37,579 bases of DNA, from contig CAMRCY010000021.1 of NCBI GenBank assembly GCA_947041165.1, positions 1 through 37,579 of the forward strand. The letters run 5' to 3'. This stretch comes from an uncultured Deferribacteraceae bacterium. GTDB lineage: Bacteria > Chrysiogenota > Deferribacteres > Deferribacterales > Mucispirillaceae. The notes beneath the pieces are model-generated. The model saw only the letters and a program-made list of their open reading frames with translations, was not told where the DNA came from and did no database searches. Below, one piece after another: positions 12,155-24,101 of the stretch. Numbering within the stretch: the stretch's first letter is position 1; each line of letters opens with the position of its first letter. A program made the translations under genes and the position numbers.

Positions 12155-13651
12155 TTACGGTCTTTCATATCTATCAGTTAAGATATTTAAAACTCCTACT
12201 AACTCGGTTACAACATCTTGAAGCTCTCCAAATCTACTATCCTTTTCAATTTTCTTACCATCAACAACTGACTGTATTAAACCGATACCTAATGAATGGA
12301 CTCTTAAATGTAGGCTCTCTAATCCAATAAAATCAGGGTCTTTACCGTAAAGCTTCGTTCCTGTTGAGTAATAAAATTTACCGAAATCACAATGCAAGTG
12401 ATCTAGCAATTCAACAGACGTACCCTTAGTATAGTTCTCTACAACTCTATCTAAAAAACATAAGTGAGCTAATTTTGCTCTTATAAAAACGATTGACTCT
12501 AAGTTATAATCGTATTTAGAATATTTGTTATTTAATAAGTTGACAACTGTGCTTATATTAGAAAATATGCCACCTAGTTCACCTAATTTATCTACTGCTA
12601 GTAATGCTTCTTCACTCATCATATCAACGCTTTCTACAATCTGTTGAGATACACTAGATTGCTCCTCTGTTGCCACAACGATACCATGTATAGATTCATT
12701 TAAATCTAACATCGCATCTTGAACACTCACGAATGAATCAGCAGAACTTCCAAGCGATACCTGTTGACTATCAACTGTTGTAGTTACATTATTAGTAAGA
12801 GTTGATACACTTAAAATATTTTTCTGAATATTGTTAATTGCATCCTCTATCTCTTTTGTAGAGTTTAAAGTTTTTTCAGCTAACTTTCTAACCTCATCTG
12901 CAACGATTGCAAATCCTCGTCCAGCCTCTCCAGCACGTGCTGCCTCAATTGCAGCGTTTAATGCTAATAGATTTGTCTGATCTGATATCTCACTAATCGT
13001 TGATGAAACCATTGCAACTTGTTTAGCATTCTCTGTAAGCATAGATATTTCTTTGTTAAGCATCGCTATATCGTTACTTATATTATCTGAAAAATCTTTA
13101 GTGGCAGTGATCAAACCAACACCTTCTTCTGTTCTATCTAATGTTGTTTTTGCTTTATCATTTATGACTAAAGTAGAATTCACAATTGAGTTAATCGCAA
13201 GTTCCATCTCTTTCTCTGCATTAACGACGTGATTACATGTGTTGTTATTTTCTTTAGCTGAATTTGCCGCATCATCTAATGAATGCTTAAAGAAGCATGT
13301 AGCCTCTTCCACAAGTGCTAGGTTTTTCAAAACATGATATATCTCTTTTGAAAATAAACCGATGAAAGCGTTAAAAGATTTTAGAATTTCATCACTACTT
13401 TCCAGACCTGTACTATTTGAAGATATCGGAAGTAAAGATAACTCTGCATCATTACTAGTTAATGTATCAACTTTTTTAGTTACAAGTAGATATTTAGAAT
13501 ATTTACGCTTTAAAAATACAAAATTTCCTATCACTGCCAAAACAGCAAAACATGTCTTAACGACAATCGGCATCGGAACAATAATTACTAATAAAAAAAA
13601 CATAAACATAACAAATGATAAAACTATCTGTGTTCTTAGGTTGATAACCAT
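12155..13651 (-). CDS. Methyl-accepting chemotaxis protein with C-terminal CZB zinc-binding domain (copy 1)
   Basis: A 498-residue chemoreceptor. Two closely spaced membrane segments (about residues 7-26 and 30-47) are joined by a tiny loop, so there is no periplasmic sensor, and no HAMP domain is evident. The signalling hairpin tip is classical ([20 protein letters not shown], then [16 protein letters not shown]). The C-terminus is a chemoreceptor zinc-binding (CZB) domain with probable ligands H396, C421, H448 and H452, in the expected H...C...HxxxH order (HCDFGKFYY and LHLRVHSLG). CZB domains in TlpD-like receptors sense cytoplasmic zinc status or hypochlorous acid. It would pass its signal to CheA/CheW, which are not in this window. 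A paralogue lies 369 bp upstream on the same strand, and each has its own terminator. Confidence 0.93.
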
Positions 13652-13939
13652 AATGTAAAATCTCCCACTAACAAAATATTATTTAACTTTTCATTCAACT
13701 AAAATTAGATATCAATAATAAAATCTATTTTTATATATTACTTAACATATTCTTCGTAATATAATATTAATAAATAAAATTGATTTAGTAAACAACAATT
13801 ATTTATTAATAGTGATTTCATGACTTAACACTATATTATTCGGTTAAAATTCACTAAATCATGATATAAATATGTATATAATAACACATTTATTATACCA
13901 TTAAACTTAATTACAATTAAAACAATGTTTCATGATAAT

Positions 13940-13982
13940 AAATGAAGGCTATCAATTATCTTTAAGAAAATAGTTGATAGCC
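13940..13982 (-). terminator. Rho-independent terminator of the second chemoreceptor gene
   Basis: Read leftward, GGCTATCAACTA pairs with the complementary arm ending TTGATAGCC, followed by TTCATTTATT. Stem arms lie at about 13947-13960 and 13971-13982. It resembles the hairpin after the first chemoreceptor in position, loop and sequence. The T-tract is interrupted, so leakage into the next gene is possible. Confidence 0.75.
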
Positions 13983-14020
13983 TTAGTTAATTCACTTATA
14001 TAATTTTAAAACAGAAACCT

Positions 14021-15523
14021 TTATAATAATTCTTTTTTCTCATATTTGTCTATTAAGATATTTAGAGTTCCAATTAATCTACCTACAACATCTTGAAGAT
14101 CATTAAGAATTCTGTCATTCTCATCTTTTGTATTAGCAGTTATTCCTCGCATTAACTCCATACCTAATGCATGAACTTGTAAATGGAACGGTTCTAGTGC
14201 AATAAAATCAGGGTCTTTACCATAAGTTTTAATACCTTCAGAGTAATAGAACTTACCAAAATCACACTGTAGATGATCTAATAAATCTATTGCATTACCC
14301 TGCTTATAATTAGATACAACCTTCTCTAAAAAGCTTAAATGAGCTAGCTTAGCTCTTATAAAAATTATTGATTCATGGTTATATTCATATTTAGAATATT
14401 TTGCACCTAAGGTACTAACCTCTGATGCTACGTTTGAAAACATATTGCTTAAATTAACAGACATCTTCATTGATCTTACTGCTTCCTCACTCATCATATC
14501 AACATTTTCAACTATCTGCTGACTAACGCTTGATTGCTCTTCCGTTGCAACAACGATCCCATGTATAGACTCATTCAAATCTAACATCGCATCTTGTGCA
14601 CTCACAAATGAATCAGCTGAACTACCAAGTGATACCTGTTGACTATCCACCGTTGTTGTCACATTCTCTGTAAGCGTTGATACACTTTTTATGTTTTTTA
14701 AGATTGCATTAACTGCATCCTCAATCTGTTTTGTAGAGTGTAGAGTTTTTTCAGCTAGTTTTCTAACTTCATCTGCAACGATTGCAAATCCTCGTCCAGC
14801 TTCTCCAGCACGTGCTGCCTCAATCGCAGCGTTTAATGCTAATAGATTAGTTTGATCAGATATCTCACCGATAGTTGATGTCATCATCGCAACCTGCTTA
14901 GCATTCTCTGTAAGCATAGATATCTCCTTGTTAAGTCTTGAAATATCCTCAGTAATATTATCAGAAAAACCTTTAGTGGCAGTTATTAGACCAACACCCT
15001 CTTCTGTTCTATCTAATGTTATTTTCGCTTTATCATTTATTACAAGAGTTGCGCTCACTATTGAGTTGATCGCAAGTTCCATCTCTTTCTCTGCATGAGC
15101 TATATATTGACAAGCATCGTTATTCTTTTCAGCAGCATACTCAACATCATTTAATAGACGTTTAAAGAAATATGTTCCCTGCTCTACTAATGACAACTGT
15201 TTCAATATGCCATATAGCTCATTAGAAAAGAGAGCTACAAAATCATTGAACAATGTAAGAACTTCACCGTTATTTCCACTTTTATTATTACCAGCAGATA
15301 TAGGCGTTAAAGAAAGATTCTCTTCCTTTAATAATAACACTATCTTATCTGTAACAAATTCATATTGTGATAATCTTTTTTTGATAAATAAGAAATTTAA
15401 AATAATCACCAATATCGAAAAACATATCTTAACTACGATAGGCATCGGTACAAAAATGATAAATAGTAAAAAGAGAAACATCGTAAAAGATAATAAAACC
15501 TGAGCTTTAAGCGAAATAACCAT
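14021..15523 (-). CDS. Methyl-accepting chemotaxis protein with C-terminal CZB zinc-binding domain (copy 2)
   Basis: A 500-residue paralogue of the neighbouring chemoreceptor, with the same architecture: two adjacent membrane segments, no periplasmic sensor, the conserved signalling tip, and a CZB domain with probable zinc ligands H395, C420, H447 and H451 (QCDFGKFYY and FHLQVHALG). The central part, from [13 protein letters not shown] to SSVSQQIVE, is very similar between the copies, including identical runs such as [15 protein letters not shown]. The stretch before it (about residues 50-140) and the segment after the signalling hairpin differ much more. That contrast fits tandem duplication with constraint or gene conversion on the signalling region, and divergence in the input region. 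The start has AGGGAG upstream. Confidence 0.93.
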
Positions 15524-21244: not shown

Positions 21245-21326
21245 TAACTATAAGAAATAGATAGTATTTTATGGGGATATAAAAATAAATATTCAAGATC
21301 CTAACGTAACCAATCACACTCCAGCA

Positions 21327-24101
21327 ATGAAACAATTCTATGATATGAAAGCATCATATCCAGACTGTATATTATTCTTCCGTATGGGAGATTTTTACGA
21401 GATGTTTGGTGAAGATGCTATTGTTGCATCAGGTATTTTAGGACTCCAACTTACATCAAGAAATAAAAACGCTAAAAACAGTATCCCTTTATGTGGAATA
21501 CCCTATCACTCATATGAAAGCTATCTTAGAAAACTTATTGAAAGTGGAAAGAAAGTTGCAATATGCGAACAGCTTGAAGACCCTCGTGAAGCGATAGGTG
21601 TCGTGAAAAGAGGCGTTGTTAAAGTTGTAACTGCATCTACTGATTTAGAAAATATGGACGCTACATCGTACGATAATAATTTTCTACTTTCAATCACTCA
21701 TAACGGATCAAACTATATCACCGCTATTGCAGATATATCAACTGGTGAGCTTTATCTTAAATCTGTTCCAACAGATAGAATAGTTGATTTTATCGAACGT
21801 ATGTCACCTAAAGAAATTATCACAAATCAAAGTTACGAAGATTTGAACGATTATAATTTTCAAGTGAAAGATATTCAGTGTGGTCAAAATCGTATGAAAG
21901 AGATTATCTTAGATCATTTCGATATCACAACAACTGATAATTATTTTATAGATGAAGACACCCTACTGCCTACATATATGATACTCTCATATTTGGATGA
22001 TCTGATTATTAGCACAAAACTATCTCTACCTAAAATATTGTCTGATGATAAAGTTTTGATACTTGATTCAATCGCTGTGAAAACTTTAGATCTAGTTCCT
22101 AGCAAAGATAAAAACAATAAATCATTATTTGATGTACTAAATAAATGTAGCACGACTATGGGTGCTAGATATTTAAAATCGGCAATATTAAATCCGTTAC
22201 GTGACACGACTCTTATAAACATGCGATATTCTATCATTGAAAAACTGATAAACTCTTACGATATGACAGAAACTATTCATTCATTATTAGATAAATCTAT
22301 CGATCTATATCGTGTTGCAACAAAAATTATCACAGGCAGTATACTCCCTAAAGAGTTGATTGCGATGAGAACTCTACTTTTAAAATTGCCTGAAATTTCT
22401 GCAATACTAAACAATATTTTAGGCAACAATAATCTAAACTTGTTTCTTGATCCGATTGACGATCTTTCAACACTGATAGGCACTGCCATGAACGATAATC
22501 CATCTAATAAAGTTGGTGATGGCTCGGTTATTAGATACGGTTACAACTCTCTTATGGATGAAATTCTTGATCTCAAAAAAGATGTAGATATTAAACTTGC
22601 AACTATCGAACAGAAAGAGAGAGAAGCATCTGGAATAGGACAGTTGAAAATCGGATATAATAAAGTTTTTGGATATTATATCGAAGTTTCTAAAAGCAAT
22701 ATTAATAGAGTGCCTGATTATTTTGAACGTAAACAAACTTTAGTTAACGCTGAACGGTTTTTTACAACTGAGTTAAAAATTTTAGAGATTGATATTTTAT
22801 CAGCCGATGATCGTTTAGCAAATTTAGAGAAAGATCTTTATAATAATATCAAAACATTTGCAAGTTGCAAAGTAGATATTATTCGTAAAATTGCCACAAG
22901 CATTTCAGAGCTTGATTTCTTAATATCTCTATCTATCGTTGCTAAAAACAATTCATATTGTAGACCTACGATTTCTGAAGAGTATGAAATATCTATTAAA
23001 GATTGTAGACACCCCATTGTTGAAAAATCACAAAACTCATCATCATTTATTCCAAATGATTTTGATATAACTGATGATAACAATTTAATGATTATCACAG
23101 GCCCTAATATGTCTGGTAAAAGTACATATTTACGATCGGTTGCGATATCAGTTGTTATGGCACACATGGGTTCATTTGTCCCTGCGTCATCTTGTAAAAT
23201 GTCGTTGGTTGATAGAGTTTTTACTCGGATCGGTGCTCATGATAATATCTCTAAGGGTGAATCTACATTTATGGTTGAGATGATAGAGTCTGCAAATATC
23301 CTTAGAAATGCAACAGATAAATCTTTAATAATTCTCGATGAACTTGGTAGAGGCACATCAACTTATGACGGAATTTCTCTCGCCACTGCAATTGCAAATT
23401 ATATATTAGATCGTATAAAAGCTAAAACATTATTTACAACACATTACCATGAATTAACAACGATTGCAGATATGCACGAGAATGCTGAATGTTATAAAGT
23501 TGATATTAAAGAGTGGAAAGATGAGATAATCTTTCTGCATAAAGTTGTGAAAGGTGCAAGCGACAGAAGTTACGGTATATATGTCGCTAAACTCGCCTCT
23601 CTTCCTGATGAAGTTATTATGAATGCAAATAGAATACTTAAAACATTGGAAGAACATAGAACTGAAGATATGATGATAGATAACAATAGTAGTATTGTAA
23701 GTGGTGGAGCTTTTGCTCATAATCATAATCATAATCATGGTAGCGATGGCGTAACTGCTCGTGATAACAATAGCGATCGTGTTGTTAGCAGTGATGATAC
23801 TGATAATAATCTTGGTGCAACTCCTAATAATAATACAAGCAACACTCGTGATACAAATAGTAACAACCTCAACAACAATACTCGTAATAATAGCGAAAAT
23901 ATTAACTATAGTAATAGTGATAATTTAAATAGTTATAATAGTGGATCAATTGAAAATAAAACTCACTCATCATCACTTACAGATCAATTGACGAAAGATA
24001 AAATTGCACTTCTGGATGAGATAAAAAATCTAGATATAAATAGTATATCTCCAATGGATGCTTTAAACCTTCTATTAAAATATAAAAAGATGGTGCTTTA
24101 A
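21327..24101 (+). CDS. mutS: DNA mismatch repair protein MutS
   Basis: MutS recognises mismatches as a clamp and recruits MutL using ATP. From the first ordinary start (ATG 21327) it has 924 residues, longer than the usual 850-880. The mismatch-binding FRMGDFYEMF motif, the core and clamp domains, Walker A (GPNMSGKST, near residue 592) and Walker B (LIILDELGRGTST) are present. The chosen ATG is the second Met-equivalent of the conserved HTPMMQQY motif (here HTPAMKQF), has no ribosome-binding site, and the family similarity continues upstream, so translation probably starts at a rare codon near 21285. Between the ATPase domain and the C-terminal helices lies a roughly 100-residue Asn/Ser/Asp-rich insert including HNHNHNH. 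The usual QLSLF clamp-loader-type motif is not visible there. Confidence 0.95.
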   Translation: MKQFYDMKASYPDCILFFRMGDFYEMFGEDAIVASGILGLQLTSRNKNAKNSIPLCGIPYHSYESYLRKLIESGKKVAICEQLEDPREAIGVVKRGVVKVVTASTDLENMDATSYDNNFLLSITHNGSNYITAIADISTGELYLKSVPTDRIVDFIERMSPKEIITNQSYEDLNDYNFQVKDIQCGQNRMKEIILDHFDITTTDNYFIDEDTLLPTYMILSYLDDLIISTKLSLPKILSDDKVLILDSIAVKTLDLVPSKDKNNKSLFDVLNKCSTTMGARYLKSAILNPLRDTTLINMRYSIIEKLINSYDMTETIHSLLDKSIDLYRVATKIITGSILPKELIAMRTLLLKLPEISAILNNILGNNNLNLFLDPIDDLSTLIGTAMNDNPSNKVGDGSVIRYGYNSLMDEILDLKKDVDIKLATIEQKEREASGIGQLKIGYNKVFGYYIEVSKSNINRVPDYFERKQTLVNAERFFTTELKILEIDILSADDRLANLEKDLYNNIKTFASCKVDIIRKIATSISELDFLISLSIVAKNNSYCRPTISEEYEISIKDCRHPIVEKSQNSSSFIPNDFDITDDNNLMIITGPNMSGKSTYLRSVAISVVMAHMGSFVPASSCKMSLVDRVFTRIGAHDNISKGESTFMVEMIESANILRNATDKSLIILDELGRGTSTYDGISLATAIANYILDRIKAKTLFTTHYHELTTIADMHENAECYKVDIKEWKDEIIFLHKVVKGASDRSYGIYVAKLASLPDEVIMNANRILKTLEEHRTEDMMIDNNSSIVSGGAFAHNHNHNHGSDGVTARDNNSDRVVSSDDTDNNLGATPNNNTSNTRDTNSNNLNNNTRNNSENINYSNSDNLNSYNSGSIENKTHSSSLTDQLTKDKIALLDEIKNLDINSISPMDALNLLLKYKKMVL

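Follow-up and report, generated by a model that had tools for sequence, protein, structure and literature searches.

A long, asparagine-rich and predicted disordered linker in MutS of a Mucispirillaceae genus lacking a recognizable clamp-binding motif

The mutS gene and its C-terminal linker

The stretch of DNA analyzed here (37,579 nucleotides, hereafter the window) is contig 21 in the 2.14-Mb genome (70 contigs; G000) of an uncultured Deferribacteraceae bacterium assigned to the Mucispirillaceae. It contains a mutS gene whose reading frame is open for 946 amino acids (Table 1). Domains I–V of MutS1 were all present and in order, with every Pfam match above the cut-off, and E. coli MutS structures were the best solved-structure matches. 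The Walker A motif GPNMSGKS, the Walker B residues DE, and the FxE mismatch motif fall in invariant or nearly invariant alignment columns, the invariant ones being F23, E25, G592–M595, G597–S599, and D671–E672. The C-terminal helix pair is intact, being both conserved in sequence and helical in the AlphaFold2 model. Elsewhere in the window, two adjacent chemoreceptor-like genes that appear very similar by eye lie at 12155–15523 on the minus strand.

Table 1 Features of the mutS locus, in window coordinates.
Feature	Position	Strand	Remarks
33-nt block TTTTATGGGGATATAAAAATAAATATTCAAGAT	21267..21299	+	Upstream of the mutS ATG; GGGG, then in-frame ATA (21285) and ATT (21291)
mutS CDS	21327..24101	+	924 aa from the first canonical ATG; Pfam MutS_I to MutS_V over cut-off
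N/S/D/T-rich linker, predicted disordered	23658..23984	+	aa 778–886; AlphaFold2 pLDDT <50 over residues 778–892
TCATAA tandem repeat, 3.7 copies	23717..23738	+	Encodes HNHNHNH; window species only
Conserved linker patch	23901..23942	+	aa 859–872, I-x-Y-S-N-x-x-N-L-x-x-Y-N-S; 4/4 species
HSSSL	23964..23978	+	aa 880–884; opposite HLSLL in G002, near QNLLP in G003; aa 876–886 dN/dS 0.78
C-terminal piece, QLTK and helix pair	23985..24098	+	aa 887–924; dN/dS 0.08; MutS C-terminal (dimer/tetramer) domain

At the start of the gene, the codons upstream of the ATG (..KINIQDxNxxNHTPAM) are conserved despite the absence of any in-frame ATG, GTG or TTG 5' of position 21327 in the mutS frame. The 33-nt block upstream of the ATG was identical in all four genus members, while the longest four-way identical run in the first 770 mutS codons measured 24 nt; the first 21 nt of the block have a single mismatch-free occurrence in the genome. 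A non-canonical ATA or ATT start for mutS is possible on this evidence, and perhaps a short leader ORF (ATG GGG ATA TAA) precedes the gene.

The initial annotation had described an insert of about 100 residues, rich in Asn, Ser, Asp and Thr, between the ATPase end of MutS and the C-terminal helix pair. This was borne out by composition: N, S, D and T together made up 0.60 of a 115-residue stretch around the linker vs 0.30 of the MutS body, and N alone 0.243 vs 0.065. The position originally assigned, 23660–23985, corresponds to aa 778–887, and the linker length was corrected to about 109 residues. Charged Asp is plentiful in the linker and Gln occurs once, and the GC content of the linker DNA (0.316) is unchanged from that of the window (0.317). 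A 437-kb portion of this genome that includes the window contains 349 ORFs with a length of 100 aa or more, and among these MutS has the richest 50-residue N/S/D/T segment (0.76). Searches of the MutS tail against plasmids (blastn) gave no match, and the tail by itself yielded nothing beyond chance matches when searched against solved structures.

Disorder, also proposed at the outset, was assessed with an AlphaFold2 model of MutS built on a 25-sequence alignment (mean pLDDT 74). The model places a helix at residues 761–783 ahead of the linker and helices at 894–900 and 909–923 after it. Residues 778–892 had pLDDT below 50, with blocks near 27, and almost no secondary structure, and block pLDDT was 66–82 from residue 891 onward. 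The linker is thus predicted to be intrinsically disordered.

Linker length and clamp motif among relatives

The genus was sampled with four genomes, one per species, and the MutS proteins of the other three members are 87–89% identical to that of the window. The linker measures 109, 94, 77, and 74 residues in the four species, so its length is not fixed within the genus. By a wider definition, which gives 120 residues for the window, the linkers of 23 measured relatives from other genera span 32–38 residues; the pattern behind this definition missed L005, L036, L039, L040, and L051, leaving three genus and 23 other rows. Two loci, L051 (stop inside the match) and L025 (an N-terminal fragment), are without a MutS tail. 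Across the order, 43 of 45 genomes had a MutS-family match; the tail survey covered the fetched loci, with about a dozen further genomes with MutS matches lying outside it.

The sliding-clamp motif of MutS reads QMSLL in E. coli, QLSFF in B. subtilis, and DLPLF in Caulobacter, according to the part of PMC8034640 drawn on here. A clamp-like hexapeptide, [QEK][PTQ]xL[VIL]F, was present in every one of the 26 intact MutS tails fetched from other genera of the order and in none of the four genus members, and neither QLxLF nor QxxLxF was matched in the linker of any of the four. Two matrices, one made from 27 hexapeptides and one from 63 pentapeptides, were then run over the complete tail of each of the four genus proteins. 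The best scores in the genus tails were –2.6 to 3.5, values often equaled by shuffled tails, whereas the source motifs scored 13.2 or more with the hexapeptide matrix and 8.0 or more with the pentapeptide matrix. The matrices are not perfect, since the motif of Clostridium uliginosum, used as a control, scored just 6.0. The early impression that no clamp motif is visible in this MutS therefore extends to the genus as sampled. The genus proteins share domains I–V, the catalytic motifs and the C-terminal helix pair with bacterial MutS that carry a clamp motif, and differ from them in having no such motif and an N/S/D/T-rich linker 2–4 times the length found in relatives.

The segment in which the motif would sit (residues 876–886) looks relaxed, given its dN/dS of 0.78 (all dN/dS values are pairwise over the four species). 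Within it, HSSSL is a possible, though weak, candidate for an eroded clamp motif, and the sequences near the same place in two congeners, HLSLL and QNLLP, may be relics of one.

A broader set of 80 MutS loci was examined with an anchor that left seven unparsed; of the 73 parsed, 63 matched a loose clamp pattern and 10 did not. The MutS of C. uliginosum (L093) has a long, low-complexity, N/S/T-rich linker (145 aa, by another definition) in the same place as the genus linker but, unlike the genus, retains the clamp-like sequence QLDFTF close to the helix pair. Long MutS linkers are accordingly not new, and it is the combination of a long linker with genus-wide motif loss that is unusual in this sample. 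Literature word searches found no report of an N-rich MutS linker or of a natural, genus-wide loss of the MutS clamp motif.

Other candidate clamp clients were less informative. In the DinB tails the usual clamp motif was absent in the rows read, but two of the eight rows (G000 and G022) showed the wrong ORF and DinB was left out as a control for that reason. The C-terminal part of DnaE keeps a T[IL]EDF-like piece in the genus, which is not an established clamp motif here. In MutL, no Gln-type clamp motif was seen by eye in any of 11 aligned members of the order, so this protein cannot reveal a change in the genus.

Codon usage and expansions in other proteins

The linker DNA had been thought to derive from slippage, and this view is upheld in part. 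Serines in the window linker are encoded by AGY in 14 of 18 cases, compared with 14 of 67 in the MutS body (p=1.4e-5), and the same bias is found in the linkers of the other three species (p=7.8e-5, 1.2e-6, and 1.4e-4). The codons AAT, AGT, GAT, ACT, and CAT all lie within one base of AAT, consistent with an origin in AAT-type repeats. On the other side, Tandem Repeats Finder found no long microsatellite left in the linker DNA, only a clean hexamer array of 22 bp and a poor array of 31 bp, and simple-repeat counts in the genus were at most slightly higher than in the sister genus; slippage is consequently read from codons. Together with the in-frame changes in length, codon usage suggests that the linker grew by slippage of AAT-type repeats. 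The HNHNHNH cluster pointed out earlier is real and is encoded by the clean hexamer; in the alignment both the TCATAA array and the cluster were absent from the three congeners (G001–G003), i.e., they occur in one species of four.

In AT-rich eukaryotes, Plasmodium and Dictyostelium among them, housekeeping proteins are known to carry Asn-rich, low-complexity inserts in their linkers and surface loops. Expansions of this kind were found in other proteins of the genus as well, which makes them a habit of the lineage and not a peculiarity of MutS. In HypF, one loop contains additional residues in the three genus members in which the protein was found and in none of five outgroups. The N-terminal linker of ParB is longer and N/D-rich in all four genus members and shorter and not N-rich in five outgroups, and N-richness was likewise seen in IF-2 and in the linker of MutL. 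As observations on individual loci, HypF of G000 (L160:11265-13796) has a long N/D-rich insert inside a Sua5/YrdC-like domain, much shorter in the other two members, and ParB of G000 (L172:13618-14592) has an N-terminal linker of nearly constant length across the genus. A further frame, L165:12315-12914, consists of SHTVxN repeats and gave a weak match, below cut-off, to a Plasmodium His-rich protein model.

To quantify the habit, about 400 kb per genome was sampled in two genus and two sister-genus genomes, all with a GC content of 0.309–0.317. ORFs with a 50-aa segment of N/S/D/T content ≥0.5 numbered 44 of 677 in the genus vs 16 of 687 in the sister genus (pooled p=1.8e-4), or, by genome, 24/326 and 20/351 vs 5/342 and 11/345. 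The excess fades at stricter cut-offs (16 vs 5 at 0.55, p=0.015; 12 vs 5 at 0.6, p=0.09), and the counts include tandem-repeat and probably secreted proteins. The expansions thus reach proteins of DNA repair, hydrogenase maturation, and chromosome partition at the same GC content as the sister genus. They resemble the Plasmodium and Dictyostelium inserts in being N-rich and in occupying loops and linkers of housekeeping proteins, and differ from them in being bacterial, smaller in scale, and in a single genus, with a sister genus of similar GC that does not share the habit.

Constraint on MutS and interpretation of the linker

Purifying selection on the MutS body is strong (dN/dS 0.07), by which test the protein is functional. 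The 22 residues ahead of the variable part (771–792) are even more constrained (dN/dS 0.02), while the alignable variable linker gave a dN/dS of 0.34 at a high dS (1.75). The genomic context agrees with a repair system being present: a MutL with the DQHxxxE endonuclease motif was found in three genus genomes, the contig of the fourth ending within mutL, and DnaN in all four. With respect to other MutS-like proteins, G000 shows only a 609-aa MutS-like frame besides MutS; a 764-residue MutS2-like frame of its three congeners is unmatched there, which may be an assembly gap.

We consider it likely, with some reservation, that the linker is a tolerated, lineage-specific disordered spacer grown by slippage, that the clamp motif was eroded on the same branch, and that MutS still works. 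In the ancestor of the genus, a short linker between the ATPase and the helix pair would have lengthened through in-frame slippage of AAT-like trinucleotides, and point mutations would then have let it drift toward codons for Asn, Ser, Asp, Thr, and His. Changes in length would be tolerated because the linker merely tethers two folded parts. The clamp motif, kept by relatives just before the helix pair, would have been lost or eroded on the same branch, and other proteins in the genus would have acquired expansions in their loops and linkers through the same habit. As C. uliginosum keeps a clamp-like motif together with a long linker, the insert need not entail loss of the motif, and the two changes may be independent of each other.

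MutS of the genus would then probably function without binding stably to the sliding clamp. Replacing the Caulobacter MutS motif (849–853) with AAAAA abolished replisome foci and left mutation rates normal, and the clamp motif of Caulobacter MutL, unlike that of MutS, did matter for repair (both from the part of PMC8034640 used here). By analogy, repair in the genus should work without the MutS motif. The genus would thus be a natural case of clamp-motif loss in a MutS under strong selection, and it bears on the conditions under which repair requires MutS to dock on the clamp; the Caulobacter mutant indicates that such docking is not always required.

The linker is not a neutral spacer throughout, because a 14-residue patch (Table 1) is conserved. 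In the patch, I, Y-S-N, N-L, and Y-N-S are the same in every one of the four species, with synonymous codon differences at I, Y, S, and N, whereas its neighbors have diverged; over residues 853–875, pN was 0.177 at a saturated pS of 0.80. In its pattern of conservation it is the sole part of the linker that behaves like a binding motif, and it may represent a newly arisen docking site. It could even have replaced the clamp motif and bind the clamp, MutL or another partner, a reading that we regard as unlikely but the most credible of the alternatives. A comparable patch, YTNSPTLxDHY, is conserved in the MutL linker in all three genus members with sequence there, and among the sampled ORFs of four genomes the sole matches to Y[ST]N[SN]..L.{2,3}[YF] were MutS and MutL of the window's genome. 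However, this pattern was drawn up after both patches had been seen, and its rarity therefore cannot serve as an independent test. The MutS patch is short and made of residues that are common in the linker anyway, and a sister-genus MutL (G006) has a similar HTNSSLNTSY, so the patch in MutL may be of older origin and have no connection with that in MutS. We know of no clamp motif that resembles IxYSNxxNLxxYNS. The resemblance of the MutS patch, YSN[SN][ND]NLxxY, to the MutL patch could also mean that a new linker motif, Y[ST]NSxxLxx(x)Y, has taken over from the usual clamp motifs in both proteins and docks them on a common partner. If so, mismatch repair would be coupled to replication by a rewired contact, but the post hoc pattern and the similar stretch in the sister-genus MutL make this a long shot.

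Compared with a spacer that is simply tolerated, a linker that tunes mismatch repair by changing length, as the initial annotation suggested, is improbable. A precedent exists in mutL of Salmonella and E. coli, where copy-number change of a 6-bp repeat switches repair (PMC2955026, in the part used here), and the TCATAA array likewise is an in-frame hexamer in a repair gene. The Salmonella repeat, however, lies in the ATP lid, whereas the MutS hexamer sits outside any catalytic element, adds His-Asn pairs to a disordered spacer, is found in one of four species, and shows no sign of an off-state. Because the sole clean repeat is short (22 bp), in frame, and within a spacer already variable among species, the switch is unsupported; linkers of 74–109 residues all accompany a constrained MutS body.

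An N-rich, predicted disordered segment might also act as a prion-like or condensate-forming domain that clusters MutS, and prion-like domains have been predicted in bacteria (PMC4606120, in the part used here). We find this very doubtful, as the linker is rich in charged Asp and has just one Gln, is not conserved apart from one patch, and has comparable counterparts in unrelated proteins of the genus. Still harder to sustain is the view that MutS is decaying and the genus a natural mutator: the motif is gone and low-complexity protein stretches are commoner than in the sister genus, but the body is constrained, the catalytic motifs are intact, and long homopolymers were neither clearly more nor clearly less frequent (15 and 3 in the two samples of the genus vs 13 and 10 in the sister genus). 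A metal site at the His cluster, also raised initially, has next to no probability, HNHNHNH being present in the window species and missing in the other three.
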